A DNA stretch of 43,992 bases, from IMG/VR virus record IMGVR_UViG_3300014501_001246, positions 1-43,992 of that record, one strand, 5' to 3'. Position numbers and translations under genes: made by a program. This DNA comes from a virus. The notes beneath the pieces were generated by a model. That model was not told where the DNA came from, searched no databases, and saw nothing but the letters and a program-made list of their open reading frames with translations. The first letter of the stretch is position 1; each line of letters opens with the position of its first letter. This document shows, piece after piece, positions 3,651 through 41,177 of this stretch.

Positions 3651-3959
3651 GTGGAAGCGAATCTCACCAAAGCGAAGCCGGCGCCCGCCGCGCGGAAAGC
3701 TGGCCTCACCCTCCAACAGAACCGCTGCCTCGAAGCGATCAAAATGCGCATCGCCGACACGGGTCGGCCACCCTCCGTCGCGGAACTGATGTTCGCGCTT
3801 GGCCTCGCGAGCAAATCTGGCGTCTTCCGGCTGCTCAATGCCCTCGAAGAACGCGGCCATATCGTGCGCCTCCGGAATCGGGCGCGATCCATCATCATCG
3901 TCGAGCCGATGACGCGCTGTCCGCACTGCCAGGGCGTGCTTTCCGAAGGCGCGCAATGA
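3651..3959 (+). CDS. LexA-like winged-helix DNA-binding protein
   Basis: 102 residues from GTG 3651, chosen because GAGAGAGG lies upstream and because frames farther upstream cross the tRNA. Residues about 19-85 match the LexA N-terminal winged helix: LTLQQNRCLEAIKMRIADTG, then RPPSVAELMFALGLASKSGV and a wing ending in RSIIIVE. There is no S24 domain. The C-terminus carries a CPHC pair (TRCPHCQGVL), half a zinc knuckle. Likely a transcription regulator of the early region. Its TGA overlaps the next ATG. Confidence 0.75.
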   Translation: MEANLTKAKPAPAARKAGLTLQQNRCLEAIKMRIADTGRPPSVAELMFALGLASKSGVFRLLNALEERGHIVRLRNRARSIIIVEPMTRCPHCQGVLSEGAQ

Positions 3960-4519
3960 TGGCGATCCCAAACCCGCGCGACCAACATTCGATAGGCGGC
4001 GAGGGCATGTCTCGCGTTTCGGTCACGCCCAATTTTCGCGCGACTCCGGACAGAAACTTTCGCGGGGATAAGCGCAACATCTTTCGCGGCCCGAACACGC
4101 GGCCCCTGGCGTTCGAACTCACCACCCATGAGTGGAACAACATTTCCGCGGAAGCCATCAATTCGCACATGCATTCCGAAGGGCTGTCGCTCAAGGAACT
4201 GGCGGAAAAGATCGGCTGCTCCGACCGTACGGTCGAGAACTACACCCAGGCGAAGACAGCGCCGGCGGGGCTGCATTTCCTGCGCTGCATCGCGGCCATT
4301 CCGGAATTCGAGGCAGAGGTCCGCCGGGTGGCGGGGCTGCTCGAGGATTCCGATCCCGTCGCCATGCATGCCGCGCTCGATCTGGTGCGCGCCGCGCAGA
4401 AATTCATGGACGTGCGGGCGCCCCGCGAAATGCCGTCGCTGCAGGTGATCGACGGCGGGGCGGAAGAGGCTGCAACCGGCGATCTGTTTGAGGGGGAAAG
4501 TGATGAACCGGACACTTAG
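3956..4519 (+). CDS. HTH-domain phage regulator, 187 aa
   Basis: Starts at the ATGATG overlapping the stop of the LexA-like gene. Residues 1-60 are basic and disordered-looking. About 70-115 carries a helix-turn-helix (SLKELAEKIGCSDRTVENYT) followed by APAGLHFLRCIAAIPEF, then a helical segment and an acidic tail (EGESDEPDT). The HTH resembles XRE/sigma-region-4-like domains in proteobacterial prophage regulators. It probably acts on early or replication genes; target unknown. An ATG at 4007 is an alternative start. Confidence 0.7.
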   Translation: MMAIPNPRDQHSIGGEGMSRVSVTPNFRATPDRNFRGDKRNIFRGPNTRPLAFELTTHEWNNISAEAINSHMHSEGLSLKELAEKIGCSDRTVENYTQAKTAPAGLHFLRCIAAIPEFEAEVRRVAGLLEDSDPVAMHAALDLVRAAQKFMDVRAPREMPSLQVIDGGAEEAATGDLFEGESDEPDT

Positions 4520-4874
4520 ACACGGGATTGCCCTTCTCGGGAAAAGCAATTCGCCAATCACGCTGCGCGAGTGGAAGCGCAGTTTCGCGCCCCACATTCA
4601 TAGTTGGTCGCAAGTGTATTCGCCCGTCTTGCTTGAGGCGCTGCACATTGCCGAGAAGACGATTGCGAAGCGCGCGACAACGTACCGGCCACCCTCGCGT
4701 CCCGAAATTTTGCGGAGATTCACGCGCGGGCGGCGCACCTTCACGCTGCACCCAACCAAAGGCTGCCGCGGCTCGACGGATTTTTCGCAGCCGGTCGGAG
4801 GCCGCCGCAAGAACAAAGGTTCCGCGCCGCTCTCAATGGCGGCTGTCGAAAAGCTTGTCGCGGCGATGGCATGA
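4503..4874 (+). CDS. hypothetical basic protein, 123 aa
   Basis: Begins inside the end of the regulator gene; ATG 4503 is preceded by GGGGGAAAG. Protein starts MNRTLRHGIALLGKSN and is rich in Lys/Arg (REWKRSFAPHIHSW; GGRRKNKGSAP), consistent with nucleic-acid contact. No family recognised. Its stop overlaps the next ATG (ATGA at 4871-4874), so it is part of the coupled early operon. Confidence 0.6.
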   Translation: MNRTLRHGIALLGKSNSPITLREWKRSFAPHIHSWSQVYSPVLLEALHIAEKTIAKRATTYRPPSRPEILRRFTRGRRTFTLHPTKGCRGSTDFSQPVGGRRKNKGSAPLSMAAVEKLVAAMA

Positions 4875-5095
4875 ACTGGCGCGCCCGCCTCCGCATGAAC
4901 AAATCGCGCCGCGCGAAATATGAAGCGCTGCACGATGCGGTTGCTGGCGAGGTCGAGAACGACCGGCTGGAAGCGCAGGTGCGCGAGATTCCCGACGCCT
5001 ATTACGACATCCCGCGGCCGGATGCGTTCGTCTCCAAGGCGGATCGCCGCGCCGAACGGCATCGCACCTACGCTCAGACGGGAGCGGTGGATTGA
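4871..5095 (+). CDS. hypothetical protein, 74 aa
   Basis: Opens MNWRARLRMNKSRRAKYEAL, strongly basic and helical, then an acidic middle (AGEVENDRLEAQVREIPDAY). Overlaps the gene before by ATGA and the gene after by TTGA. No recognised family. Confidence 0.6.
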   Translation: MNWRARLRMNKSRRAKYEALHDAVAGEVENDRLEAQVREIPDAYYDIPRPDAFVSKADRRAERHRTYAQTGAVD

Positions 5096-5319
5096 GCGCG
5101 CACCCCACCCCGCGCGAAGAACGCACGCTGCTGCGCGAGGTCTCCGGCGCCTATGTCCACGCTCGCGAACGCTATGAACGCCACCAGGCGCAGGGCAATG
5201 CCGAGCTGGCAGACGCCGCCTTTTCCAAGATGCAGGAGATCGAAGCCTCGGTCTCCATCCGCGAGCTGAATTCGAGCTGGAGGAATGAGCCTCCGCTCAA
5301 GACGAGGGGATCCTCATGA
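5092..5319 (+). CDS. hypothetical coiled protein, 75 aa
   Basis: TTG start at 5092 overlapping the previous TGA (TTGA). The protein begins MSAHPTPREERTLLREVSGA and is largely helical and charged (VHARERYERHQAQGNAEL), likely a short coiled coil. Role unknown; coupling on both sides supports translation. Confidence 0.55.
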   Translation: MSAHPTPREERTLLREVSGAYVHARERYERHQAQGNAELADAAFSKMQEIEASVSIRELNSSWRNEPPLKTRGSS

Positions 5320-5330
5320 AGGAGACGACG

Positions 5331-5693
5331 ATGGCAGAAGAGAGACAGGACGCGCCGGCGCCCGGAGCGGCGCGCAGCTTCTCGTGGTTTTTGCAGCAGA
5401 TTGGCGACGGGTCGCTGCATCACGATCTGACGAATGAACTGCGCGAGATGGCGACAGCGATGAACCAATACGTTCAGGATTTTCGCGGAGCACCCAAAGG
5501 CAAGATCGTCCTGACGCTCGATTTCAAGCTGGACAAGCAGGCTTTCGAGGTCAGCGGCAGCTTCAAGATCACCAAGCCGAAGGCGCCCGCCGCCGGCGCC
5601 GTCATGTGGACCGACAAGGCGAACAACTTCACCCAGCAGCATCCGAGCCAGATGCAGCTTTTCCCGGCAGGTGTGCGCTCGCTCGACAGCTGA
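5331..5693 (+). CDS. conserved phage hypothetical protein, 120 aa
   Basis: ATG 5331 follows AAGGAG at ideal distance; an in-frame ATG at 5316 overlaps the previous stop but has a weaker site. Pattern: FSWFLQQIGDGSLHHDLTNE, a helical segment, then KIVLTLDFKLDKQAFEVSGS and a Pro/Lys-rich strand region ending near DKANNFTQQHPSQMQLF. I recall proteins with this layout next to DUF2303 genes in many proteobacterial phages; no function is assigned. It immediately precedes DUF2303 here too. Confidence 0.65.
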   Translation: MAEERQDAPAPGAARSFSWFLQQIGDGSLHHDLTNELREMATAMNQYVQDFRGAPKGKIVLTLDFKLDKQAFEVSGSFKITKPKAPAAGAVMWTDKANNFTQQHPSQMQLFPAGVRSLDS

Positions 5694-5754
5694 GCCCGCG
5701 CGAATCGCCGGTCAACCATGAACGCCGCGGCGGCGCGGCACATTGAGGAAGCAA

Positions 5755-6705
5755 ATGGATACGCATCAACTCGAAACCTTCTCCGAACTGGCAAAGAAGG
5801 CCGTCGGGACGGAAGTCAAGAATATCGACCTGAATATCGGCGAGGGCCGCACGGCGCCGCTGATCATCATCGACGATGGCCGCAAAGCGATCGTTGCGGC
5901 CGATATCATCTCCAGTTTTGAAAAGGTTCAGCCTGCACCCTACCGCCGCCGCGGCATCTTCAAGGCCGCTGATGTGAAAAGCCTGCTCGCCTGGATGGAC
6001 GCGAACACGGCCGAGACCGCGCCGGTGTTTGGCGAAGGTGCGGAGCAGCTCGGCACAAACTGGAAGACGCCGAAGCTGGCGCTGATCGGCATCGGCAACT
6101 ACGCGGCCAAAGACAAAGCCGAGTGGCACGATTTTGGCGCCCGTTATGACTTCCCGGTTGCAGAAGCCTTCAAGGTGTGGGCTGCGAAACACGGCGAATG
6201 GTTCGAGCAGAGCGAGTTCGCCGAGTTCATCGAAAGCCGCCTCTACGATCTGGCAAGCCCTGCCTCCGGCGAGACTTCGAGCGAAGCCGTCACGCGGTTT
6301 CTAGAACTGATTGGCAGCGACCGGAAAGACACGAAGGTCGCAACACCGGCCAAGCTGTTCGAGCTTTCGCGCGGGCTGAAGCTCACCGCCACGTCGAAGA
6401 TGGAACAGAAGGTTAATCTGCAGTCCGGCGAGGCAACGCTCGTCTATGCGGAGGAACACAGCGGTGCGGGCGGCAACCCGATCAAGGTGCCGAACATGTT
6501 CTACGTCCGCATTCCGGTGTTCTTCGGCCAGGTGCCCACGCTGATCGGCGCGCTGCTGCGCTACCGCGCGCATGGCGGCACGATCAAATGGAGTTACGAA
6601 CTCTTCGCTCCCGATCTCGTGGTGAAGGAAGAGTTTGAGGCGGCGTGCACGGCGGTGAAGACAGCCGGCCGCACGCTCTGGCTCGGTTCGCCGGACAAGC
6701 CGTAG
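5755..6705 (+). CDS. DUF2303 family protein (YfdQ-like)
   Basis: 316 residues from ATG 5755, which has GAGGAAG just upstream. Features of DUF2303/YfdQ: APLIIIDDGRKAIVAADI near the start, WMDANTAETAPVFGEG about 90-105, a central KVWAAKHGEWFEQSEFAEF, and a C-terminal beta-rich RIPVFFGQVPTLIGALLRYR. The family is widespread in temperate phages, usually in the early or recombination region; biochemical role not known. Full length for the family. Confidence 0.85.
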   Translation: MDTHQLETFSELAKKAVGTEVKNIDLNIGEGRTAPLIIIDDGRKAIVAADIISSFEKVQPAPYRRRGIFKAADVKSLLAWMDANTAETAPVFGEGAEQLGTNWKTPKLALIGIGNYAAKDKAEWHDFGARYDFPVAEAFKVWAAKHGEWFEQSEFAEFIESRLYDLASPASGETSSEAVTRFLELIGSDRKDTKVATPAKLFELSRGLKLTATSKMEQKVNLQSGEATLVYAEEHSGAGGNPIKVPNMFYVRIPVFFGQVPTLIGALLRYRAHGGTIKWSYELFAPDLVVKEEFEAACTAVKTAGRTLWLGSPDKP

Positions 6706-6752
6706 AGCAAACGCATGGCCGCTGCCGCCGTAGGGCGACAGCGGATGGGGCA

Positions 6753-7082
6753 ATGATGAGCGAATACTGGATAATCACCTCGCACGAGTGCGAGCGGCAT
6801 ACGAGCCTCGACGAAGCGAAGCGCGGGCACGAGATGCTGCGCCGCTATCTGCCCGGCATCACCTTCACCATCCATCGCTGCAAGGCCTCGCTGCATTCGG
6901 CGCACCATTTCACCAAGCTGGTGGATTTGCTGCGCGACATCGTGAAGGACGGGTTCACACCGGAAAACCGGGACCGCGCGACGATTCTGCTGCAAACCAT
7001 CAAGAACCGTAGCGAAATGCCTGTCTCGCCCAACGCGCCGCCGGAATTCAAACCGCTGCCATTCAAGCGGAGAACCGCATGA
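6753..7082 (+). CDS. hypothetical protein, 109 aa
   Basis: ATGATG at 6753/6756 with GGATGGGG upstream. Begins MMSEYWIITSHECERHTSL; the first 45 residues look like a small alpha/beta domain (DEAKRGHEMLRRYLPGITFT), followed by helices and a Pro-rich tail (PNAPPEFKPLPFKRR). No family recognised. Ends in an ATGA overlap with the next gene. Confidence 0.6.
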   Translation: MMSEYWIITSHECERHTSLDEAKRGHEMLRRYLPGITFTIHRCKASLHSAHHFTKLVDLLRDIVKDGFTPENRDRATILLQTIKNRSEMPVSPNAPPEFKPLPFKRRTA

Positions 7083-7720
7083 GCGTTCTCGGCGCGGTTC
7101 GGTTCAGCTGGGCGGAAGTGATAGATGCCCGCAAGGGTGCGCGCACGCAATTGCGCGGGGTGGCGTATGTCTACGATCCCGCGATCAGCAAGCGGAAGCT
7201 CTCGCTCCATGGCCGCGCCAGGCCCGGCGATCTCTTCTGGGTTGGCGAGCCGGTCACCCATTGGTGGGGGCAGCGGGACGAAACCCTTCAGGCCCGGGTG
7301 TTCTGCGCCGATCACGCGAGCTCGATAGGGCCGCGGCCGGAGCACCTGAAGAATCACTGGATGCGCTGCCGCAACATTCCGGAGCGCAACATGCGCCGCG
7401 CGGGTTCGCGCCTGACACTGGAAGTGACCGCGAACAGGCTCGAGCATCTGCACACCATCTCCGCCGCAGACGCCGAAGCCTCCGGTGTGCGCATGGAGAT
7501 GCGACAGGGCAGGCCGCATTACGCGACGGCCGGCCATCCCGAAGGCCATGGCATCACGCCGCAAGCCGCCTTCCTCGACCAATGGCGCCGGGCCCACGGA
7601 AAGATCAGCCTCGACGCCGATCCGGTTCTCGCGGTGGTTACGTTCCGGCTGATCGAAGCGAATGTGGATCAGTTGTGCCTTGGCGGCCGCACGGAAAACA
7701 AACAAAGGGTCGCGGCATGA
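7079..7720 (+). CDS. ASCH/PUA-like phage protein
   Basis: 213 residues. Layout resembles phage ASCH/PUA-fold proteins: an early FWVGEPVTHWW strand, an Arg-rich IPERNMRRAGSRLTLEVTAN segment, the HTISAADAEASGV motif ('ITxADAxAEGV' in relatives), AFLDQWRRAHG and a final strand DPVLAVVTFRLIEANV. The family is thought to bind nucleic acid or nucleotides; some members are annotated as morphogenetic proteins. Family call is by motif order, so moderate. Overlaps both neighbours. Confidence 0.6.
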   Translation: MSVLGAVRFSWAEVIDARKGARTQLRGVAYVYDPAISKRKLSLHGRARPGDLFWVGEPVTHWWGQRDETLQARVFCADHASSIGPRPEHLKNHWMRCRNIPERNMRRAGSRLTLEVTANRLEHLHTISAADAEASGVRMEMRQGRPHYATAGHPEGHGITPQAAFLDQWRRAHGKISLDADPVLAVVTFRLIEANVDQLCLGGRTENKQRVAA

Positions 7721-7920
7721 GGTTCACACCCTTCATACATCGCGACGGCGGCACGTTCGGGCTTTGGTGGGGCGACGGGCTCAGCCTCCATCTCTACCGG
7801 GGCTTTGCGCATCACAGTTTCACGCTGCGCCTTTGGCGCTGGCGCTTCAAAGTCACCCGCCACCTGGCCCCGCAAGGCTTCAGCAACCGCCTGGTGTGGA
7901 AAGCGTGGAGGGCGGCATGA
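7717..7920 (+). CDS. hypothetical aromatic-rich protein, 67 aa
   Basis: Starts MRFTPFIHRDGGTFGLWWGD. Extremely rich in Trp, Phe and Arg for its size (HSFTLRLWRWRFKVTRHLAP). ATGA overlaps at both ends. No transmembrane helix by eye; could be a small beta-sheet protein. Family unknown. Confidence 0.6.
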   Translation: MRFTPFIHRDGGTFGLWWGDGLSLHLYRGFAHHSFTLRLWRWRFKVTRHLAPQGFSNRLVWKAWRAA

Positions 7921-8318
7921 TCGTGTATGTCGGCACGCCCTTCACGAAGTTTCGGGGCGGCCTGGACGCGGCGTATCGCGTCGCGGTCACAGTCACCGCC
8001 AGGCTCACCGCCGCCGGCATCGCCGCCTATTCGCCGATCGTTCATACCTATCCGCTCTCGACGGCCGGCGCGCCTGATTATCTCGATCACGATTTCTGGC
8101 TGGCCGCAGATGTGCCTTTCATGGATGCAGCGGGTGCGCTTCTGATCGTCAAGGCGGAGGGCTGGGACGAGAGCTACGGCATCGCGATCGAGGCGCGACA
8201 CTTCCGCAAGGCACACAAGCCGGTGGTGCACGCCACGCCGGAAGAGATTGCCCACCCCGACTTTCCGCAATGGCTGCGCCAGCGTCTCGACGCGAAGGCC
8301 CGCGAGATGGCCGCATGA
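7917..8318 (+). CDS. DUF1937 family protein (deoxyribosyltransferase-like)
   Basis: 133 residues starting MIVYVGTPFTKFRGGLDAAY, matching DUF1937, a relative of nucleoside 2-deoxyribosyltransferases. Conserved parts: the GTPFTKF loop, AYSPIVHTYPL, FMDAAGALLIVKAEGWDES and SYGIAIEARHFRKAHKPV. In the related enzymes the WxxSxG(xx)xE segment holds the catalytic Glu, here in ESYGIAIE. Possible role in nucleotide metabolism or modified nucleotides; unproven for DUF1937. Confidence 0.8.
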   Translation: MIVYVGTPFTKFRGGLDAAYRVAVTVTARLTAAGIAAYSPIVHTYPLSTAGAPDYLDHDFWLAADVPFMDAAGALLIVKAEGWDESYGIAIEARHFRKAHKPVVHATPEEIAHPDFPQWLRQRLDAKAREMAA

Positions 8319-8530
8319 CCGTGCGGGGCTTCTACGCAGCCTGTACGCTCGATCACACACCGAGCGGACGCAAATCCCGCGCCACACCCATGCATCCCTG
8401 CCAGGGCGGCTGTGGCGGCGATGTGAAGGCGGGGAGCAAACGCTGCCCGCCGTGCTCCGACATCGCGCAGCAGGAGAACCGGAGGATCAGGAACGGGGTC
8501 AACCGTGCGCGCGGAAGGGTGGCGGCATGA
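8315..8530 (+). CDS. small Cys-rich (zinc-binding) protein, 71 aa
   Basis: From ATG 8315 overlapping the previous stop. Contains CQGGCGGDVKAGSKRCPPC, an apparent CxxxC-x11-CxxC zinc-binding module, followed by a basic tail. A similar small Cys-rich protein follows the replication gene at 10845. Function unknown; size and charge suggest nucleic-acid or protein binding. Confidence 0.6.
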   Translation: MTVRGFYAACTLDHTPSGRKSRATPMHPCQGGCGGDVKAGSKRCPPCSDIAQQENRRIRNGVNRARGRVAA

Positions 8531-9153
8531 CAGCAAACAAGAAACGCAAGGATGCGCATCTCTGGGCCCGTGACCCGGACGATTGGTATGTCGAGCCGCG
8601 CTGGTGCAGCCAGGGCCTTTTCGCGGTCGAACTGTTCCAAGGCAACATCTGGGATCCGGCTTGCGGCTCCGGCCGAATTCTCGATGCGGCCCGCTGCGCC
8701 GGTCACGACACCTACGGGATGGATATCCGGGACCGGCTTAGACGTCCGGACCATGTCTTCGTGCAAGGCGATTTCCTCGCCGCTGAAGAACTCGCGCCGC
8801 ACAATATTGTCACCAATCCGCCTTATCTGCACGCGGACGCGTTTGCAGCGGCGTGTCTGCGCCGGGCGCGCCGGAAGGTTGCGTTGCTCCTGCGCGCACA
8901 ATGGGCGAACGCGGGCACGCGATCGCGCTGGTTGGAAAGCCTGCCGCTGCGCCGCGTTCTGGTGATTACACCGCGACCGTCTATGCCCCCCGGCGCCGTC
9001 ATCCTCGCGAATGGCGGCAAAGACCCATCCGGCGGCCTTCAGGATTACGCCTGGTACATCTTCGAGAGGGACTACACCGGCAATCCGGAATTCGGATGGT
9101 GCAGACGCCCCGATAAATCGAACGCGTCCCGTCTCATGGCGGAGGCCGCATGA
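8527..9153 (+). CDS. DNA adenine N6-methyltransferase-like protein
   Basis: 208 residues. AdoMet-binding motif I is DPACGSG (43-49) and the catalytic motif IV is NPPY (97-100), both intact, the set used by N6-adenine DNA methyltransferases. MDIRD (65-69) fits motif II. The C-terminal half holds PSMPPGAVILANGGKDPSGG and YAWYIFERD, common in compact phage methyltransferases. No partner restriction gene is visible, so it is an orphan enzyme that may shield phage DNA or alter gene control. Overlaps both neighbours by ATGA. Confidence 0.85.
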   Translation: MTANKKRKDAHLWARDPDDWYVEPRWCSQGLFAVELFQGNIWDPACGSGRILDAARCAGHDTYGMDIRDRLRRPDHVFVQGDFLAAEELAPHNIVTNPPYLHADAFAAACLRRARRKVALLLRAQWANAGTRSRWLESLPLRRVLVITPRPSMPPGAVILANGGKDPSGGLQDYAWYIFERDYTGNPEFGWCRRPDKSNASRLMAEAA

Positions 9154-9575
9154 CCTCGCTCTTCGAGATCGAATTTACGTCATCTGATCTGGAAATAACC
9201 AGCATCACGATCGAAGGAGAACGCACGACAATCAGGGTCGGTAGAGCGTTGTGCTCTATTACGCCAGCGGAAGTCCGCGCCGAACTATCGTTCAAAGAAA
9301 CAGAAAACCCTCAATCACAATTCCCAGCGCCTGCGGAGACGGGTGCACCAATCGCCGATGTGGAGTCGATCACAACCACGATGGGCTGTGACGACGCCGA
9401 CCACGCCGGCGATGTCTCCAACGGGGTGAAGCGTCTGGCACCGGAACCAGCGCCGGAGATGGCGGAGGCGCGTGGAAGTTCCTCCGCCATCGACGTTACG
9501 CGGGAGGATAATTTCGAGATTCCCGCGTTCCTTCGCCGCCCTCAACCGCAACGCGAGCGGCGCGAGGCGGCATGA
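9150..9575 (+). CDS. unknown protein with FtsZ-tail-like C-terminus
   Basis: 141 residues. N-terminal 45 residues alternate charged and hydrophobic (small beta domain), residues about 50-118 are acidic, Pro/Ala-rich and probably disordered, and the end reads DNFEIPAFLRRPQPQRERR (IPAFLRR at 124-130). This closely matches the conserved C-terminal peptide of FtsZ (E. coli: DYLDIPAFLRKQ), which docks FtsA, ZipA, MinC and others. As in FtsZ, it is the tip of a disordered tail. A role as competitor in cell division is inferred. The rest shows no FtsZ homology. Confidence 0.7.
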   Translation: MTSLFEIEFTSSDLEITSITIEGERTTIRVGRALCSITPAEVRAELSFKETENPQSQFPAPAETGAPIADVESITTTMGCDDADHAGDVSNGVKRLAPEPAPEMAEARGSSSAIDVTREDNFEIPAFLRRPQPQRERREAA

Positions 9576-30729: not shown

Positions 30730-31425
30730 ATGCACCCATTCCATGACCTCGGCCGGCGTGTGCGGACGCTGGTCAGCCGCGCCAAGCTCACTTTGTGCGA
30801 TGTCAGCAATCCCGTCCGCGCGCTCGTACAACTGAAAAGTAGCATTCTCGGCACGCTCGACAAGGCCGAGCTTCATGCTCACTACGGTTTCTCGTGCTAC
30901 CCGCTGCCGGGCGGCGATCTTCTTGTGTTCATGAACACGGCCACCGCCAGTCACGCGGTTGCCATTCATTGCGACGACAGCACCCTCCGGATCACGGATT
31001 TGCAGCCCGGGGAATTCGGTCATCGAGACCAGAACCAAAACCAGATCGTCTTCCGTCAAGGCTGGATCGAGATCACCACCCAGAACGGCAAGCACATCAA
31101 GATCAACGATAGCGGCGATCTCGACATTACCGTCGCCGGGAAGGTCAATCTGAATGTCACTGGCGATTGCGACCTCATCGTCGGCGGGCAGACCAATCTC
31201 ACCTGCACCGGCAAGGTGGTCGCGAGCGCCAGCGAATTTGATCTGACGGGCAATCTGAAGGTCACCGGCACTATCACCAGCACGGGTTCGATTGCTTCGA
31301 CCGGCGGAGACGTGAGCGACCAGGTGCGCAGCATCGCGGCGGACCGCACGATTTATGACGGCCACAAGCACGGAAACGTGCAGAACGGCTCGGGATTCAC
31401 CGCCGTTCCGGATGATCTCCAATGA
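30730..31425 (+). CDS. baseplate spike protein (Mu gp45-like)
   Basis: 231 residues with an N-terminal OB-like region (FSCYPLPGGDLLVFMNTATA). A beta-helical spike of repeating short strands follows (DSGDLDITVAGKVNLNVTGD; DLIVGGQTNLTCTG; STGSIASTGG), then the C-terminal tip TIYDGHKHGN. HxH near the apex is the iron-binding motif of gp45/gpV spikes. Pierces the outer membrane on contraction. Confidence 0.9.
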   Translation: MHPFHDLGRRVRTLVSRAKLTLCDVSNPVRALVQLKSSILGTLDKAELHAHYGFSCYPLPGGDLLVFMNTATASHAVAIHCDDSTLRITDLQPGEFGHRDQNQNQIVFRQGWIEITTQNGKHIKINDSGDLDITVAGKVNLNVTGDCDLIVGGQTNLTCTGKVVASASEFDLTGNLKVTGTITSTGSIASTGGDVSDQVRSIAADRTIYDGHKHGNVQNGSGFTAVPDDLQ

Positions 31426-32030
31426 GCGATATCGCGACCGTCATCCTCGAGAACAAGACGTCGCTTTATTGCGATTGGGTCATGGACGGCCCGGATATCG
31501 AATCCGACGATGGCATGCTCACCGCCGTCACGATCTCGCTACTGACCGACCGCCTGGCCGACGCGGACGACGATATTCCCGATGCACCCGGGATCGGGCA
31601 GCCCGGTATCGCCGATCGGCGGGGATGGTGGGGCGATACGGTTCCGTCCTCGTCAACGGACAAGAAGCCGGACCTTATCGGCTCGAGGCTTTGGTTGCTC
31701 GCGCGGGCCTCTGCCACTCCACAAACCGCAACCCTGGCAAAGGGCTACATTCAGGAAGCACTGGCCTGGATGATCGAGGACGGCGTTGCCGGCCGGGTCA
31801 ATGTGGCGGCCCGGATCGACCCGCAGAACAGCGACGCGCTTGCCGTCGGCATCCAGATCGTGCGCACGGCCGCGAATGGTGCTCCGGTCAACCACGCCTA
31901 TGACTTTGTTTGGGCCTCGACCAATGGCGTGCTCGGCACGCCCGATACCATCGTGCTGCATCAGGTGCTCGGCAACGAGGCCGGCGTGCTGGTGGTCGAC
32001 CAGGACAGCAAACCCATCGACGTGAACTGA
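31422..32030 (+). CDS. baseplate wedge protein (Mu gp46-like)
   Basis: 202 residues. MTAVTISLLTDRLAD-type segment, IADRRGWWGD, IGSRLWLLARASATPQTATL and YIQEALAWMIEDGVAGRVNV match the gp46 family (related to gp25/gpW of other contractile tails). Built around the hub with gp47 and gp48. Overlaps the spike gene by ATGA; note that gp47 does not follow directly because a fibre-like gene intervenes. Confidence 0.9.
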   Translation: MSDIATVILENKTSLYCDWVMDGPDIESDDGMLTAVTISLLTDRLADADDDIPDAPGIGQPGIADRRGWWGDTVPSSSTDKKPDLIGSRLWLLARASATPQTATLAKGYIQEALAWMIEDGVAGRVNVAARIDPQNSDALAVGIQIVRTAANGAPVNHAYDFVWASTNGVLGTPDTIVLHQVLGNEAGVLVVDQDSKPIDVN

Positions 32031-32041
32031 AAGGCGAGGCG

Positions 32042-32860
32042 ATGAAACGCGCAGTCCTTTTCGCCGCGCTGTTTTGCATGCTTTCGCGGCCGGCTTCGGC
32101 GCAGCTTCAGATTTCACAGTTCCCGGCCGCATCGCTGCCGTTGAATTGCGAATACACGCTCGTTGAGCAGGGAGGCATCACCAGCTCGGCCAAGGTTTGT
32201 GACTTCGGGATTCCGGTGCAGGGCAGCACGGCGCCCGCAACCGATCTGTTCACCGGCCGGCAATGGCTCGACACGTCTACAACCCCGCCGACGCTGCGCA
32301 TTTACGACGGCACGCAATGGGTCGGGCAGGCAACGCTCAATCTCTCGACCCATGTCTGGACCCCGATCTTCTCTTCCGCCTCTCCCGGCGTTGCCGCATC
32401 GCTGGCAACCCCGGTCCCGGAATTCAAGCTGCATTCGATCCCCTCCGTGCAATCGACCGGCACGGGCACGTCGGAGCAGTTTCTCGATAGCTGGAATCTT
32501 CCCGGCGGCTCGCTCGATATCACGGGCCGCAATGTCCGCATCACGGCCTGGTTCGCCCATGCCGGGAATACGCACACGGTCACCGACAAGCTCTATTTCG
32601 GATCGGAAAGTGTGAGCGATGGTGGCGTCAGCACCGCGTCGACCGTCACGCGCCTTTCCATCGTCGTGACAAAGGTCGGGACCAACCAGCAAAGCGTGGT
32701 TCTGGAAGGCGCGGCGGGCGTCTCTCTGGTCGCTGGCTCTGCCTATATCGCGGCCACGGAAAACGATGCCGCTTCCATCACGATTCAGGCGTCGTGCACC
32801 GACGGAACGTCGAGCGCCGGCGACGGCAATCTCGTGGGCCTGACGGTTGAGCTTCTTTGA
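32042..32860 (+). CDS. short tail fibre-like protein with signal peptide
   Basis: 272 residues from ATG 32042 (AAGGCGAGG upstream). Residues 1-20 form a Sec signal peptide ending SRPASA. Residues about 21-105 repeat the pattern at the start of the big fibre (ISQFPAASLPLNCEYTLVEQ, FGIPVQGS, WLDTSTTPPTLRIYDGTQWV), so the two are paralogs in this anchoring module. The remaining about 150 residues are a beta-rich tip (LDITGRNVRITAWFAHAGNT; AYIAATENDAASITIQASCT). Its place between gp46 and gp47 is outside the usual Mu tail order. Probably a second receptor-binding protein. Confidence 0.7.
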   Translation: MKRAVLFAALFCMLSRPASAQLQISQFPAASLPLNCEYTLVEQGGITSSAKVCDFGIPVQGSTAPATDLFTGRQWLDTSTTPPTLRIYDGTQWVGQATLNLSTHVWTPIFSSASPGVAASLATPVPEFKLHSIPSVQSTGTGTSEQFLDSWNLPGGSLDITGRNVRITAWFAHAGNTHTVTDKLYFGSESVSDGGVSTASTVTRLSIVVTKVGTNQQSVVLEGAAGVSLVAGSAYIAATENDAASITIQASCTDGTSSAGDGNLVGLTVELL

Positions 32861-32878
32861 CAGGTCCGGTGCGCTGAA

Positions 32879-33946
32879 ATGCTGAATTTCACCCGCCCCA
32901 ACCTCAGCACGCTCATCCAGCAGGCGTTTGGAGATTTCCAGGCCCAGCTCCCGGGCGCCGACACGACGCTCCGGCGCTCCAACGTCACGGTCTCGTCCAA
33001 GGTGCTGGCGGCGCTCGCGAACGGGATCTACGGCTATATCGACTGGATATGGCAGCAGATATTCGCCTTCGCGCCTCTCTGGGCCTTTGTCTTCAACATT
33101 CCGCAAAAGCAGGCGACCTTCGCAAGCGGGAACGGCGTCTTCACCGGGAACAACGGCACAAACATCCCGATCGGCACGCTGTGGCAGGATTCGCTGGGCA
33201 ATCAATACGAGACGACAGCTCTCGGCACGATCGTCGGCGGAACTGCCACGGTTCCGATTCTCGCTCTCACGTCCGGCTCCGCTGGCGATCTCGCGGCCAA
33301 CGCGCCGCTCACCATCGTCAGCTCGCTCGCCAACATCAATCCGAATGGCGCGGTTGACGGGAACGGCCTCTCCGGGGGCTACAATCAGGAAACGCCGGCC
33401 GCCTGGTCTGCCCGGGTTGGGGCCTATCTGCAGCTTCCGCCGCAGGGTGGGACGCCCAACGATTACCAGAACTGGGCGATCGACGGTTACACCGACGCGA
33501 ACGGCGTTCTCCACGCCTATGCCGGCGTCACGCGCGCATGGTGCCATCCTCTGGCGAGCGGTCCTGGCACGGTCTCGCTCAGCTTCATGATGGACGGGCG
33601 GCCCAATCCGATCCCGCAGGCCGGGGACGTGGCCGCCGTTCAGGCGATCATCAATCTCGCTGCACCGGGAACCGACGTGGCGACCGTCTTCGCACCAACT
33701 GCTTCGCCCGTGAATTTCACCATCCACGGCGTTCCTGTTGCCCAGCGCGCGGCCGTAACAGCGGCGCTCCAGGCACTCTTCTCCTCCGTGGTCGGAGAGG
33801 GCCAGGGCGTGAGCCTGCAGGGGCAGATCATCCCCACGGTGCAAGGAGCAGCCTTGGCCTCTGGCGTCACCGTGGTGGCACCTAATGCCGATCTCCCGCC
33901 GATCGCGGGCACGATCTATACCTTTGGGGCACCCACCTACACATGA
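32879..33946 (+). CDS. baseplate protein J-like (Mu gp47)
   Basis: 355 residues. RPNLSTLIQQAFGDFQAQLP, VLAALANGIYGYIDWIWQQI, then GTLWQDSLGNQYETTALGTI and NGLSGGYNQETPAAWSARVG ... GGTPNDYQNWAIDGYTD are the gp47/J signatures. C-terminal VAQRAAVTAALQALFSSVVG. Wedge component controlling sheath contraction. Confidence 0.92.
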   Translation: MLNFTRPNLSTLIQQAFGDFQAQLPGADTTLRRSNVTVSSKVLAALANGIYGYIDWIWQQIFAFAPLWAFVFNIPQKQATFASGNGVFTGNNGTNIPIGTLWQDSLGNQYETTALGTIVGGTATVPILALTSGSAGDLAANAPLTIVSSLANINPNGAVDGNGLSGGYNQETPAAWSARVGAYLQLPPQGGTPNDYQNWAIDGYTDANGVLHAYAGVTRAWCHPLASGPGTVSLSFMMDGRPNPIPQAGDVAAVQAIINLAAPGTDVATVFAPTASPVNFTIHGVPVAQRAAVTAALQALFSSVVGEGQGVSLQGQIIPTVQGAALASGVTVVAPNADLPPIAGTIYTFGAPTYT

Positions 33947-34461
33947 CCACTTCCCTTGCGCCCTTCGCAGGCCTCAGCCAGGACGATTTTCTTGCCGCGG
34001 CACAGGGCAACTTGCCCAAGGGGCTGGCATGGCCGCGCTATCAGGAAGCCGTGCAGAGCGCCTTCTGGCGGGCCGCGGGAGGTACATTCAAGCGCCTGAA
34101 CGATGCGATCTCCACTTTCTTCGGCAGCGAGCTCGACCCGTCCCAGACCGTCACCTATCTGCCGGCCTGGTACGCGCGCTTCGGCCTGCCGACGATCGAC
34201 TGGGCAACCACGGCCCAGCTCCAGGCCCTGCTGGTTTGGCGGTTGCGCGACCGCGGGGGTTTCGCGGATAGCCGCTACATCGCCATGATGGCCACGCTCG
34301 GCGTTGGCATCACTTGCGCCCATCCGGGCGGAGCGGCGGCGTATGCCCTCACCATTCACGCACCGGCCGCTCTGACAGCCGATCAACGAGGCACTCTCGT
34401 CACTCTGGTCACGCCGCGCGTCCGCGCCAGCGTGGTCCTAGCCTTCGTCTACGACCTGTAA
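33943..34461 (+). CDS. baseplate protein gp48-like (YmfQ/DUF2313)
   Basis: 172 residues. LPKGLAWPRYQEAVQSAFWR, then SELDPSQTVTYLPAWYARFG, and ALLVWRLRDRGGFADSRYIA match YmfQ/Mu gp48. It links the wedge to the tail fibre, whose gene follows after 16 bp. Overlaps gp47 by ATGA. Confidence 0.88.
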   Translation: MTTSLAPFAGLSQDDFLAAAQGNLPKGLAWPRYQEAVQSAFWRAAGGTFKRLNDAISTFFGSELDPSQTVTYLPAWYARFGLPTIDWATTAQLQALLVWRLRDRGGFADSRYIAMMATLGVGITCAHPGGAAAYALTIHAPAALTADQRGTLVTLVTPRVRASVVLAFVYDL

Positions 34462-34477
34462 TTTCCGGGAAACATCC

Positions 34478-37400
34478 ATGAAGCTCACGCGCGCCCTTTT
34501 CGCGATTGCCCTGGCTTGCGGTTTCGGCACCATCATGCCGGCCGCGCGGGCACAAATAACGGGCGCGATTTCCCAGCTCCCGCCCGCGTCGGTCCCCCTG
34601 AGCAACGAACAGACGCCGGTTGTACAGAATGGCATCGCCAAGCGAGCCTCGGCTCTCGCCTTCGGGGTGCCCGCTGCCGGCACGAGCGTACCGACACCGA
34701 TTGCGGCCGGCCAGTTCTGGCTCGACGAATCCACCTCGCCCTACACGCTTCGCCAATGGGACGGCACGAGCTGGGCGCCGCTCACCACGGTCGATCCGAC
34801 AGCACATTCCGGCGTGCAGCCGCTGGCCAATGGAGGAACGGGACAGGTCACGCCGCAGGCCGCGCGCGCAGGCGCCGGGCTCAACATCGACAGCGCAACG
34901 CCGGTCGGTGACGGTAACTATCAGATCCTCGCCACCGATCGCACGCTTGTCACCAATCACGCCCTTTCCGCCCCGCGGGTGTGGACCCTGCCCGCCGCCG
35001 CTGCCGTCAATCCCGGGCAGATGCTGATTGTGCTCGACAGCTTCGGTGCCATCAGCGGTTCGAACACGCTGACACTGATCGCCAGCGGCTCCGACCATAT
35101 CGCCGGCGCACCTTCCGTCGCGCTCACCAATACCTATTCCGGCTCACTGATCGTGAGCGATGGGGTTTCTACGTGGACGCTCTATTCCATCCCGATGAAT
35201 CTGGGCGGCTCAACTGTCGCCGGCGGCGACCTGAACGGCACGTATCCGAATCCGCAGGTCAGGAAGATCGATGGTCAGACGCCGGCCGCCGTCGCTACCA
35301 GCGGCAGCGCCAGCGATCTTGGAACGGGCACACTCCCGAATGGTCGGCTCTCCGGCGTTCCAAATAGCGCATTGGCGAACGCCGCGATCACGCTGGGCGG
35401 GCAATCCGTCGCGCTGGGCGCGAGTGCGGCAACAACCGGCAATGGCAACAAACTCTGCACCGGAACCGGCAGCTATACGCCGGGGCATCTTGTCAGCGTC
35501 GATGCAAATGGAAATTGCAGCGACTCGGGAAGCGCCAGCGCTCCCGCTGCTCCGGGCGGCACGAGCGGGCAGATTCAGTACAACAACAGCGGTGTTCTTG
35601 CGGGTGAAACGATCGTTCCGCAAGCGAATGGCGGAACGGGAAATTCTGCCGGGACCGCTACGCCATCCGGCACGGCCGGCGGCGATCTTTCCGGTTCGTA
35701 TCCGAACCCGACGGTGTCTCAGGTTGGCGGCCATGCGCTCGCGGCAACCGCGCCGCTCGGCGTTTCCAACAGCAATTATTCCTGCCCGACCTGCGCCACG
35801 ACCGGGACGGGCGGCGCTCTGTCTGCTTCCGCACCGGCTCAGATTAGTTCCGGCGGTAATATTTCCGTCAACACTTTCACCACTTCCACACCCGGCACGG
35901 CTCCGGCCAGCGGCGGCGGTACGACGAACTATCTTCGCGCGGACGGCACGTGGAGCGCGCCGCCGGCCGGCACACCCGCCGGCACGAACGGGCAGGTGCA
36001 GATCAACAATAGCGGCGCGTTCGGCGTGTCAAACGATGTGGCAACCGGCGCGGCCTCTTTCGCGGCGTTCCAGGCCGGTTCGTTTGGAAACTTCGCGACG
36101 CGCGTTTTTGTCGACGGCCACAATGGTCCCGGCACGCCAGGTGCTGCCTGGTACACAAAGGTTTCGGCTTGCCCGGGCTCGATCTCGCCGGACGGCGGCG
36201 CCTGCGCGCAGACGGCGGATGGCGCGCATTGGTGGGATTCGGACTTCGGCCGTTATCCGAACCTGGCTGTGTACGGGCTTCAGCCCTCCTCCAGCCCGCA
36301 GGACATGACGGCGGCGGTCAATTCCGCATGGACAGCCATGGCCGCGGCGAACGTCTCGCACATCCTGCACAGCGACGCCATTCCGTTCGGCTACACCGGC
36401 AATCTCAATATTCCGAATGGTTATTACCTCACCTGCGATACCGGCACGCAGGCGATCAACTATGCCAGCATTTCCGCCACGATGCCCGGGCTGCTGTCGT
36501 TCAATCTTGGAACGGCCGGCTCGCCCACGGGCTACACGATCAATTCGGGCAAGCAGGGAGGGATTTTCGGGTGCTATGAGATAAACACGCCAGATCTCGC
36601 ATACTACCCGAGCCCGACCACGCGGCAGCAGCTGACCATCATCTCCAACATGGTCGGCACGATGAACACGGTCAGCCAGACGGGCGCAGCGGCGCACGAT
36701 CTTGTCGTGCTTGGCGGCGGGACTTGCTTCGCGTTGAACGGAGGCGGAGGGCAGGCGTTTTACGACAATTACGGCGACTGCATGAACGGCGCCACGCTGG
36801 AGAACCTTGGCGACGTGCCCACGATGCACGACGATCGCTGGGGCGATTATCTGTTCAAGAATATCGGTTCGTCGAAGTTCGTTCAGATACCGGTCACCGG
36901 CCTTTCGTCCGGCGCTGGCGGCGCCTGCCAGCTCGCCACGGGGACCTACCCGCAGCAATCCGCGCCCGACAGCTTCTCCGTCCTGGCCGGGGATTACGGC
37001 CATCTGGTCGGATCGAACACCGGCTGCGACGGCCCGAACTGGTCCGTCACCGTCTCGGGCTCCAATATCACGCTTCCCGGAAGCTCTTACGCCGGGCCGT
37101 CCGGCTATACAGCGACGGCCGTCAGCGGCAATCCGCTGATCTCGCTCTCTTCGCCCGTGAATGTCGAAGACGGCATGACGATCACCGATACGTCGGGTTC
37201 TGGCTGTTTCACCAATGATCTCATTGTTGCGGTCGGCACGAAGGATTCGCCGCTTGGCCCGTCGCCGCTGAACGGCATCCGGGTCCAGACAAATCCGACT
37301 TGCGCGACCTCTTCCGGCAGCGTGTCGTTCAGCAACCCGGCCTACACGCAAGTGATCATGACGGCCTCGATCGGCACAAACGTGCTGACCGTTTCCGCGA

Positions 37401-39217
37401 TCAGCCAGGGCACGATCGTGCCGGCGACAACTTTGTTTCTGAACGATGGCACGGTCGGAAACGTGCCCTATGGCGTGGCGATCACCTCGCAACTGACCGG
37501 CACGACGGGAGGCACCGGCACCTATCAGCTCAGCCAGACGGTCGGCACGGTTGCGTCCGAAGCGATGACGGCCGGCGCCGTCTTCGACATTTTCACCAAT
37601 GTCCGCAACGGCATCGGCTTCTACGGTACGAACTCGAAAGGCACCAAATGCACCGGTAGCTGCTTCGACTACGCGCACGAAACCCATTTCGAGTGGGACA
37701 ACGGCTTCCAGTGGGCCAACTGGGTCGATTCTGGCGGCGACAGCGACCCCAACCTTCACGATCCTGCCCAGATCGGCATAGAATTCCGCGGCACCGCCAG
37801 CGCCAATATTTTCAGCGCGTGCACGATCCACGCCGCTGCCGAAGCCGTCGTCGGCATCGCGCAAAACGGCACAACCAACGTCGTCGAGGGCTGCACGTCA
37901 CTCGGCGAATCCGACTCCTCCGGCTCCATGTTCGATATCGAGTCCGGCAAGGTCACAATTTCCGACAGCGGCACCGGCTCGTCCAATTCGAGCTTCGTCG
38001 GCAGCGGCATCACCGCCCTAAAGCTGGTCGGCAACACCCTGGCCTCGACCTTCGTGGGCGTGCAGTCCCAGGCGACCCTCGCCAACAACGTATTTTGCGA
38101 CGGCGATGCCACCAAGCCCGGCTCGACCATGTCGTGCCCGAACGACCCCAACAACCGCACGCTCTGGGCGCCGCTCGATCTCTGCAACGCGGCCTATTCC
38201 GGCGGCTGTTTTACGCTCAACCAGGGAGCCGCCGGCGCGCTGGTAATCACGGCGCCCGGCGTGGGCGCCATAAGTTTCAGCATCAACCCGACGACAGGGC
38301 AGATTTCCGGGCTGCTACCCGTCCCGACGACGACCGCCCGCGGCGGGGTCATTGGCCTCGCGGGCGGAACCCCACACAATGTTGTTCAGTACATCGATAC
38401 GGTGACTGGCGCGCAGAACTTGACGCGGCTTGGCTGTGGCGATTTGTCGACCGCAGCGCCGTCCTGCTCGACGGACACCACGAACGCATCAAACATTTCC
38501 TCCGGTACGCTGGCAGCGGCACAGGGCGGCGCAGGTGCGGTCAACGGCGCGCTGGCAGGAAACGGGTCCGGTGCAGTCTCCCAAGCGGCGTGCGCAGGGC
38601 TTTCCAATGCCGCCCCCTCATGTTCCACCGATACGACGAACGCTGCCAATATCACCAGCGGCACCCTCCCTGCGGCGCGTTTGCCGGTGCCGACGACGGG
38701 CGCACTCGGCGGAGTCGAAAGTATTTCATGCACTTCCGGCAAATTCATTACCGTCGTTCCGACAACCGCCGTTCAACCTACATGCACGACACCCGTAACC
38801 GGCGCAACAGAACAAAGCACGAGCAGCAACCCTGCCACACCCGGCACAACCTCTTCATTCCTCATGCAGGGATTGGCGGGGTCGATAACAACCACCAAGA
38901 CCGGAAATGTGCTGATAACCATTTCCGGTTACGCGGCCCCGCAAAACGCGGTGACAGACGGGATAAAATTTCAGATTTCCTATGGAACAAGTACGCCTCC
39001 ATCTAACGGTCACGCATTAACTGGAACACAAGTGGGCTCGGTTGAGCAATCTCAAGTCGGAAACGCTTCAGTTTATAACATGCCGTTTTCCATTACTGCC
39101 GTTGTGACCGGCCTTACCGTAGGAACTACGTATTGGATTGATTTGGCCGCTGAACTAACGGCTGGAACGACCAGCACGCTCAACAATGTGACGATTGCTG
39201 CCGTAGAGATTTCCTGA
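34478..39217 (+). CDS. tail fibre/tailspike, 1579 aa, with signal peptide
   Basis: Largest gene. Residues 1-25 are a Sec signal peptide (KLTRALFAIALACGFG...PAARAQ). The next about 90 residues share the ISQLPPASVPL ... GQFWLDESTSPYTLRQWDGT module with the gene at 32042. Then come fibre-type repeats (GGDLNGTYPNPQV, GGDLSGSYPNPTV; GQIQYNNSGVL, GQVQINNSGAF). From about 545 a wide beta-helix-like region (VFVDGHNGPG, GFYGTNSKGTKCTGSCFDYA) with embedded Thr/Val beta inserts suggests a spike, possibly enzymatic. Near 1320-1410 two copies of AAPSCSTDTTNASNISSGTL-type units occur. The last about 130 residues form a distinct, lower-GC tip. Receptor binding is inferred. Confidence 0.82.
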   Translation: MKLTRALFAIALACGFGTIMPAARAQITGAISQLPPASVPLSNEQTPVVQNGIAKRASALAFGVPAAGTSVPTPIAAGQFWLDESTSPYTLRQWDGTSWAPLTTVDPTAHSGVQPLANGGTGQVTPQAARAGAGLNIDSATPVGDGNYQILATDRTLVTNHALSAPRVWTLPAAAAVNPGQMLIVLDSFGAISGSNTLTLIASGSDHIAGAPSVALTNTYSGSLIVSDGVSTWTLYSIPMNLGGSTVAGGDLNGTYPNPQVRKIDGQTPAAVATSGSASDLGTGTLPNGRLSGVPNSALANAAITLGGQSVALGASAATTGNGNKLCTGTGSYTPGHLVSVDANGNCSDSGSASAPAAPGGTSGQIQYNNSGVLAGETIVPQANGGTGNSAGTATPSGTAGGDLSGSYPNPTVSQVGGHALAATAPLGVSNSNYSCPTCATTGTGGALSASAPAQISSGGNISVNTFTTSTPGTAPASGGGTTNYLRADGTWSAPPAGTPAGTNGQVQINNSGAFGVSNDVATGAASFAAFQAGSFGNFATRVFVDGHNGPGTPGAAWYTKVSACPGSISPDGGACAQTADGAHWWDSDFGRYPNLAVYGLQPSSSPQDMTAAVNSAWTAMAAANVSHILHSDAIPFGYTGNLNIPNGYYLTCDTGTQAINYASISATMPGLLSFNLGTAGSPTGYTINSGKQGGIFGCYEINTPDLAYYPSPTTRQQLTIISNMVGTMNTVSQTGAAAHDLVVLGGGTCFALNGGGGQAFYDNYGDCMNGATLENLGDVPTMHDDRWGDYLFKNIGSSKFVQIPVTGLSSGAGGACQLATGTYPQQSAPDSFSVLAGDYGHLVGSNTGCDGPNWSVTVSGSNITLPGSSYAGPSGYTATAVSGNPLISLSSPVNVEDGMTITDTSGSGCFTNDLIVAVGTKDSPLGPSPLNGIRVQTNPTCATSSGSVSFSNPAYTQVIMTASIGTNVLTVSAISQGTIVPATTLFLNDGTVGNVPYGVAITSQLTGTTGGTGTYQLSQTVGTVASEAMTAGAVFDIFTNVRNGIGFYGTNSKGTKCTGSCFDYAHETHFEWDNGFQWANWVDSGGDSDPNLHDPAQIGIEFRGTASANIFSACTIHAAAEAVVGIAQNGTTNVVEGCTSLGESDSSGSMFDIESGKVTISDSGTGSSNSSFVGSGITALKLVGNTLASTFVGVQSQATLANNVFCDGDATKPGSTMSCPNDPNNRTLWAPLDLCNAAYSGGCFTLNQGAAGALVITAPGVGAISFSINPTTGQISGLLPVPTTTARGGVIGLAGGTPHNVVQYIDTVTGAQNLTRLGCGDLSTAAPSCSTDTTNASNISSGTLAAAQGGAGAVNGALAGNGSGAVSQAACAGLSNAAPSCSTDTTNAANITSGTLPAARLPVPTTGALGGVESISCTSGKFITVVPTTAVQPTCTTPVTGATEQSTSSNPATPGTTSSFLMQGLAGSITTTKTGNVLITISGYAAPQNAVTDGIKFQISYGTSTPPSNGHALTGTQVGSVEQSQVGNASVYNMPFSITAVVTGLTVGTTYWIDLAAELTAGTTSTLNNVTIAAVEIS

Positions 39218-39249: not shown

Positions 39250-40170
39250 ATGAACCAGATCGCAACGCCTTCCGGGCGCGCATTGACGTGCACCCTTTTT
39301 GCGCTTGCCGTTCTCGGCTGCGCTGGCGGTGGCAACGTACCGGTTTCGTCCGGCGTGATGCTCGGCGCATATGTGCCGGGCGGAATTGCCTCGCTGGAAG
39401 CGCAGACGGGGCGGCCGCTTGCGCTCGATTATCGATATGTCACGCTCGGTGCGTCCGCGTTCCCATGGCTTGCCGACGATGCCGCGCACGGCCGCGCGCC
39501 GCTTATCGGGCTTGCACCGGGTGGCGTGACAGCGGACGGTATTGGATCAGGCGAGTACGATGTGGCTCTGACCGCCCTCGCCATTGCATTAAAGACCTTC
39601 GGCAATCCGGTTGCCTTGATCTTCATACCAGAGCCGACCGACTGCAAACTCACGACGTTCTACGGCCCGAACTGGTGCGCGACGCCAGCAACGATTTCCG
39701 CAGCCGCAGGCCAGTACGTCGTTGCTGAGGAACGCGCTTGGACGATATTTCAGCAGTCCGCACCGAATGTCCGGTTCATTGTCGCCATGGAAGGAACTGC
39801 ATACAAATCCGGCCTATGGAAGCAATTCTATCCTGGCTCCGAATTTACTAACTATCTCGGCATGGACCATCGCTATGGCGGCAGCGGGCCAGCCTATGAC
39901 TTCGCGAGCGATGCCGACGTCAAGGCGTTCTGGACGGCGGTTCAGTCCAGCGGGCGCTCCGGCATCGTCACCGAAACCTGCGCAGGCCCGGCATATGAAG
40001 CCGAACTGATCTCGACCGCGGCGAAAGAACTTCCGTCCATGCCGCAGATTGCGGGCTTCGTGCTCAACGCGAATCCCGGCGGCGATGGCTGCGGAGCACC
40101 GAATGCAGCGGCAATCGCGGCGTTCAAGGCGATGGCAGCTGAGACGTACTATCAAGCGAAGCTGCAGTAG
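39250..40170 (+). CDS. GH26-like glycoside hydrolase lipoprotein
   Basis: 306 residues. Lipobox AVLGC with Cys24 after a hydrophobic stretch. The rest looks like a GH26-type TIM barrel: VMLGAYVPGG, LDYRYVTLGASAFPW, ALIFIPEPTD with Glu128 as candidate acid/base, FIVAMEGTAY, and GIVTETCAG with Glu242 as candidate nucleophile. GH26 enzymes cut beta-mannans and related polymers. Position directly after the fibre suggests a capsule/exopolysaccharide depolymerase, but the lipid anchor implies action at the host membrane rather than on the virion. Family by motif pattern; substrate unknown. Confidence 0.62.
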   Translation: MNQIATPSGRALTCTLFALAVLGCAGGGNVPVSSGVMLGAYVPGGIASLEAQTGRPLALDYRYVTLGASAFPWLADDAAHGRAPLIGLAPGGVTADGIGSGEYDVALTALAIALKTFGNPVALIFIPEPTDCKLTTFYGPNWCATPATISAAAGQYVVAEERAWTIFQQSAPNVRFIVAMEGTAYKSGLWKQFYPGSEFTNYLGMDHRYGGSGPAYDFASDADVKAFWTAVQSSGRSGIVTETCAGPAYEAELISTAAKELPSMPQIAGFVLNANPGGDGCGAPNAAAIAAFKAMAAETYYQAKLQ

Positions 40171-40826: not shown

Positions 40827-41177
40827 ATGCGTCTCGCTCTGGCGTTTGCACTCGCGTGTGCGCTTCCCGTCGCGGCCTCTGCACAATCCATGGCCGGCAT
40901 TTGCTTGCCGTACCAGAAAGACTGCCTTCATTTCGACGCGGGCTTCATATCGAAAGCAGACGCGGAGGAAATGTGCCGATCATGGCCGCCCCAAAGCGCC
41001 GACGAAATGCTGGAGTGCATACACGACGAGCAGCTTTCGGCGATGGAATCGGTGGCAAAATGTTCAATCGGCGGCCAGACGTTTTTCGTCGAAGGCGCAG
41101 ACTTGATGCTCTACCCAGCCAATAGTTATCTCACGGGCGCGAACCGCCTTGAGTGTCATCTGATTCCACCCGGCTGA
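40827..41177 (+). CDS. secreted Cys-rich protein, 116 aa
   Basis: ATG 40827 has AAAGGA upstream and begins a clean signal peptide (MRLALAFALACALPVAASAQ); a GTG at 40800 would add nine residues. The mature about 96 residues contain six Cys (GICLPYQKDC, EEMCRSW, LECIHDEQ, AKCSIGG, LECHL), suggesting three disulfides and a periplasmic or extracellular home. Family not recognised. Sits in the lysis block; may modify lysis or be a conversion gene. Confidence 0.65.
   Translation: MRLALAFALACALPVAASAQSMAGICLPYQKDCLHFDAGFISKADAEEMCRSWPPQSADEMLECIHDEQLSAMESVAKCSIGGQTFFVEGADLMLYPANSYLTGANRLECHLIPPG

Follow-up and report, generated by a model that had tools for sequence, protein, structure and literature searches.

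The virions of tailed phages are assembled, in the textbook view, wholly in the cytoplasm. Virion proteins with Sec signal peptides (SPs) and disulfides are known from filamentous phages, as exemplified by coat proteins such as pIII. The fibres described here share operon position, an N-terminal module, and tip or shaft similarity with the tail fibres and tail collar proteins of tailed phages, but differ from them by a Sec SP and paired cysteines. They also differ from pIII-type proteins, which are assembled in the membrane and extruded, in that they belong to tailed phages released by lysis. The open-access papers searched did not describe tail fibres with an SP in any tailed phage; such fibres may have been noticed earlier elsewhere.

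In Mu-like phages, the baseplate cassette runs from gp44 to gp48 and is followed by the tail fibre, which in Mu lies after gp48. This cassette is the reference to which the present locus is compared.

Two fibre genes in a Mu-like baseplate operon

The DNA analysed here ("the window") is the whole 43,992-base virus record IMGVR_UViG_3300014501_001246. Judging from gene homologies, it belongs to a Mu-like contractile-tailed phage, with a GpA-type terminase, a lambda-type portal, an S49 protease, a capsid E protein, a sheath, a gp44-like hub, and homologs of gp45, gp46, gp47 (baseplate J), and gp48. The hub and gp45 to gp48 follow the order of the Mu-like cassette. The window differs from it, however, by an extra SP-bearing fibre (the "short fibre") between gp46 and gp47, and by the nature of the gene occupying the Mu fibre position after gp48, which codes for a 1579-residue SP-bearing fibre (the "giant fibre"). 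The resulting order is gp46-short-gp47-gp48-giant (Table 1). The intergenic gaps flanking the fibre genes are short (11, 18, and 16 bases), and no excess of promoters or terminators is seen around them. Together with their place within the baseplate operon, this suggests expression late rather than in lysogens. At the 5' end of the window (positions 1-705), a plus-strand frame encodes a highly repetitive MAPVARCGG/MATVARCGG-type repeat.

Table 1. Features of the fibre region, in window positions (a slash marks the predicted cut)
Feature	Positions	Strand	Remarks
Mu gp45-like and gp46-like baseplate genes	30730..32030	+	immediately 5' of the short fibre
Short-fibre SP, MKRAVLFAALFCMLSRPASA	32042..32101	+	predicted cut before Q21; direct reading and SP rule
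Short-fibre N-terminal module, ISQFPAAS...WLDTSTTPPTLRIYDGTQW	32102..32395	+	C36 and C53 flank a predicted β-hairpin, in register
Short-fibre tip domain	32411..32857	+	match to a Microcystis phage hypothetical protein (33.8%, E 2e-6)
Mu gp47-like (baseplate J) and gp48-like genes	32879..34461	+	between the short and giant fibres
Giant-fibre SP, MKLTRALFAIALACGFGTIMPAARA	34478..34552	+	predicted cut before Q26; direct reading and SP rule
Giant-fibre N-terminal module, ISQLPPAS...WLDESTSPYTLRQWDGTSW	34553..34831	+	no cysteine in the module
Giant-fibre shaft segment	34889..35191	+	resembles the tail spike of Pseudanabaena phage Pam5 (44.6%, E 6e-17)
Giant-fibre Cys-rich shaft/body	35456..38785	+	28 cysteines as 14 consecutive close pairs, C327-C347 ... 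C1418-C1436
Putative lipoprotein, lipobox ALAVLG/C24	39250..40170	+	next operon gene after the giant fibre
Small SP-bearing protein, MRLALAFALACALPVAASA/Q	40827..41177	+	SP rule; six mature cysteines

Both fibre reading frames were confirmed, at 32042-32860 (short, 272 residues) and 34478-39217 (giant). SPs were assigned with a home-made heuristic rule, distinct from SignalP, which looks for a basic n-region, an uncharged hydrophobic core, and an A-x-A-type site; shuffled sequences pass it in 6.6% of cases. It is positive for five of the 34 window genes: the two fibres, those at 39250 and 40827, and, weakly, that at 28879. By this rule, both fibres display all three elements of Sec/signal-peptidase-I SPs, with strong cores, in agreement with the first-pass annotation, which had placed an SP ahead of a shared module in each of them. 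The two proteins are 41% identical over residues 1-104 and 3-110, SP included (E 2e-18), and 45% identical after the SP. The ATG opening the short-fibre SP is preceded by AAGG (and GAGG), that of the giant fibre only by a weak GGGA. A start downstream of the SP, giving a cytoplasmic fibre, was tested and rejected: no Shine-Dalgarno-like sequence accompanies the ATGs lying in frame within the SPs (32078 and 34535). Trimeric autotransporters (type V secretion) were also discarded, as Pfam showed no C-terminal outer-membrane anchor domain, giving no match for the giant fibre and none of relevance for the short fibre.

The module that follows the SP is shared with SP-less phage fibres, and its fold is like that of phage tail-fibre and tail-collar proteins, the tail collar protein of Rhizobium phage vB_RglS_P106B being a structural neighbour. 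Sequence and fold searches of the PDB with the module returned no meaningful match. Several members possess, in addition, a tip or a shaft similar to PHROG tail-fibre families.

Two further genes of the region code for products of an exported type. The lipobox that the first-pass annotation reported in the gene at 39250 is plausible, and its product harbors four further cysteines (C132, C143, C244, and C281); searches of Pfam, PHROG, and PDB sequences gave no match for it, and it may resemble a TIM-barrel glycosidase. The late cluster also includes, directly after a GH19-type endolysin gene, the small protein encoded at 40827-41177, which is likewise predicted to be exported and of disulfide type and has no family match.

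Related fibres with and without a signal peptide

The first related fibre seen with an SP was that of Bradyrhizobium siphophage ppUSDA122Bd-1 (OP596612), the virions of which have been observed by TEM (PMC10127595). The text of that paper mentions neither tail fibres nor SPs (PMC10127595). Both tandem fibres of this phage consist of an SP and a module with a Cys pair. The SP and module are common to ppUSDA122Bd-1 and the window phage, but the former is a siphophage with a different tail module. In its record (L169 in our set), the "hypothetical protein" at 7918-9366 on the minus strand, is the other of these two SP-bearing fibres and shares the module and the Cys pair with the annotated tail fibre beside it.

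A survey was performed with the post-SP module only (three alignments) against IMG/VR, phage and plasmid records, and 782 alphaproteobacterial genomes. After redundancy removal at 80%, and with marine proteins of loose similarity left out, it yielded 39 SP-bearing and 32 SP-less fibres; two of the former (L020 and L019-7151) were taken as SP-bearing by hand, their automatic start having fallen upstream of the SP. Thus, an SP directly precedes the same module in 39 non-redundant relatives although the queries lacked it, which argues that the window SPs are not chance hydrophobic starts and bears out the first-pass annotation on this point. IMG/VR was also scanned for close relatives of the short fibre, the giant fibre, and the gp47 protein, and with a two-row module alignment, in each case without a match; a scan of genome contigs gave three loci, only one of them a true relative. 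Matches of the giant-fibre N-terminus to Microbacterium phages were set aside, as these proteins lack an SP and their alignment is loose.

In most SP-less fibres, M[S/T/A/P]Q opens the protein at the predicted SP cut point, in line with the mature [A/S/D..]Q start of their SP-bearing relatives; SP-less L015 (MSQNSLVLPTTG) may thus be compared to SP-bearing L047 (...FIGRA/SQNGLALPTTG), and the window-type SP-less relatives L110 and L152 start with MADxRISQLP. A ribosome-binding-like site lies right at the M[S/T/A/P]Q start. This coincidence of start and cut point indicates that the SP is an extra unit placed ahead of an ordinary virion-fibre N-terminus.

The hydrophobic stretch might, instead of directing export, be a structural anchor or a trimerisation helix of a fibre assembled in the cytoplasm. 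Hydrophobic helices can indeed serve as anchors, and SP identity between relatives (0.38) exceeds that of shuffled sequences (0.27). The modules of the same pairs are, however, more conserved (0.49), the SP-less homologs manage without the stretch, and Ala or Val is found at -3 in 31/39 relatives and Ala at -1 in 39/39, bearing in mind that the choice of site favours these residues.

It has also been considered that, with an inefficient SP, a fraction of the fibre stays in the cytoplasm and enters the virion, while the rest is exported. Such a dual localisation would account for the virion-type module and for export together, and several SPs do contain internal ATGs. Yet these internal starts mostly have no ribosome-binding-like sequence, one being found before the SP start in most SP-bearing members, and the strength of the SP cores does not fit inefficient export; we regard this reading as the least probable of those weighed here.

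SP-bearing members come from IMG/VR, environmental contigs and isolate-genome prophages alike. The first-pass annotation had held that a majority of homologs starting after the hydrophobic stretch would speak against export. Such a majority does exist in the 782 alphaproteobacterial genomes, where every module homolog found is SP-less. It leaves export standing, since the SP-bearing fibres form their own groups with their own cysteine signature.

Cysteine pairing in the SP-bearing fibres

The modules of SP-bearing fibres contain two cysteines in 33 cases, none in six, and one in no case, whereas those of SP-less fibres contain none in 30 cases, one in two, and two in no case (Fisher p 2e-14). 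The positions of the module pair differ between proteins: C36/C53 in the short fibre, with an equivalent in L011, C6/C43, C32/C52, and others in L021 and L013. In a structure model of the short fibre, reliable in the module only (pLDDT about 72-90 over most of it), C36 and C53 (mature residues 16 and 33) flank the hairpin strands 18-23 and 26-31 in register, their proximity being judged from the strand register. The Cys pairs of shafts and tips are much more variable between proteins than those of the modules.

Over the complete proteins, the number of mature cysteines is even in 32/34 SP-bearing fibres (p 7e-8), as compared to 15/25 SP-less fibres, and cysteine density reaches 1.22% versus 0.60% (p 3e-6). 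Cysteines are also paired consecutively along the chain. Successive gaps in the giant fibre are 20, 89, 3, 126, 11, 77, 46, 51, 18, 49, 33, 60, 32, 116, 4, 53, 24, 68, 13, 16, 8, 76, 10, 42, 10, 36, and 18, and permutation gives p<5e-5 for this protein alone and p<5e-5 for 31 SP-bearing proteins together, versus p 0.47 for SP-less fibres (six proteins testable). In a control set of 104 other non-redundant genes lacking an SP, taken from these phages and from the window, 35/77 have an even count and no pairing is observed (gap test p=0.34); the set retains a few mis-started SP-bearing fibres, which weakens the contrast. The short fibre departs from the even, locally paired pattern, having three mature cysteines, one of them unpaired.

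The association between SP and cysteines has few independent events, since the SP state changes only ~5 times on the module tree, twice with firm support. A tree-based independent-pair test, underpowered with its two supported pairs, agrees with the association in most pairings and contradicts it in none.

As the SP-bearing fibres carry even, paired cysteines, and their SP-less relatives and the other non-SP genes do not, export to an oxidising compartment is likely. We consider it very probable, from these sequence patterns, that SP-bearing fibres are exported by Sec and fold oxidatively in the periplasm. The first-pass annotation had taken the signals to imply export, and the recurrence of SPs, the SP-less starts at the cut point, and the disulfide signature, which is peculiar to the fibres with an SP, all support this view. 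It had also proposed an N-terminus reused as an assembly anchor, which is disfavoured: SP-less homologs start just after the stretch, and paired cysteines are absent from them. An anchor or trimerisation helix in place of an export signal therefore appears improbable.

Probable export and possible docking on the virion

The window fibres would be synthesised late, alongside the baseplate. Export to the periplasm, cleavage after A20 (short) or A25 (giant), and disulfide-bonded folding there are predicted steps strongly supported by the sequence. The exported fibres would most likely meet virions assembled in the cytoplasm when the inner membrane gives way during lysis, and may dock through the N-terminal module also used by SP-less virion fibres. 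Docking is suggested, more weakly than export, by the retention of a virion-type module and by the fact that most SP-bearing phages show no SP-less substitute. We lean slightly towards this complete scheme, in which fibres exported via a cleavable SP and folded with disulfides in the periplasm would dock on virions at lysis. The unpaired cysteine of the short fibre and the absence of cysteine from the giant-fibre module count against it, as does the ability of some siphophages to infect with their tail tip alone.

Alternatively, the exported fibres might never join virions and instead bind the receptor on the producer or on neighbouring cells, resulting in receptor blocking, superinfection exclusion, or protection of the progeny from debris. 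For biofilm modification, which the first-pass annotation also named, at most a candidate neighbouring gene speaks here. The export and disulfide evidence fits a role away from the virion equally well. Moreover, two contigs possess an SP-less fibre as well, so that the exported ones might be additional: in L100, an SP-less copy accompanies two SP-bearing ones, and L011, with the same gp45-gp46-SP-bearing fibre-gp47-gp48 order as the window, has a canonical SP-less fibre after gp48. L100 (IMGVR_UViG_3300005513_000301, 3859-9044), where the SP-less fibre directly follows the tail tip and is accompanied by its two SP-bearing paralogs, offers a natural comparison. In siphophage-type contigs, ppUSDA122Bd-1 among them, one or two SP-bearing fibres are found after the tail-tip gene, and about 17 of the about 28 SP-bearing contigs, window included, carry two SP-bearing modules. 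But 27 of these about 28 contigs, L100 being the exception, show no SP-less module copy, and the window has no other module-bearing fibre. The genes also lie in the middle of a baseplate operon with expression late rather than in lysogens, and they keep a virion-type N-terminal module that a decoy does not need. A role away from the virion is the main rival of docking at lysis but the less likely of the two, and docking is favoured.

More tentatively, and with somewhat less than even confidence, these phages may form a class of tailed phages in which virion construction is split between two compartments, the cytoplasm supplying the head, tail, and baseplate and the periplasm the Sec-exported, disulfide-bonded fibres, and these parts are joined only during lysis. 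If fibres are indeed exported by Sec and disulfide-bonded in these roughly thirty phage sequences, of myophage as well as siphophage type, host recognition would be decided by host secretion and oxidative folding (Dsb), and lysis might be the stage at which fibres are added or exchanged. Gene callers and annotators should then neither trim nor discard such N-termini.
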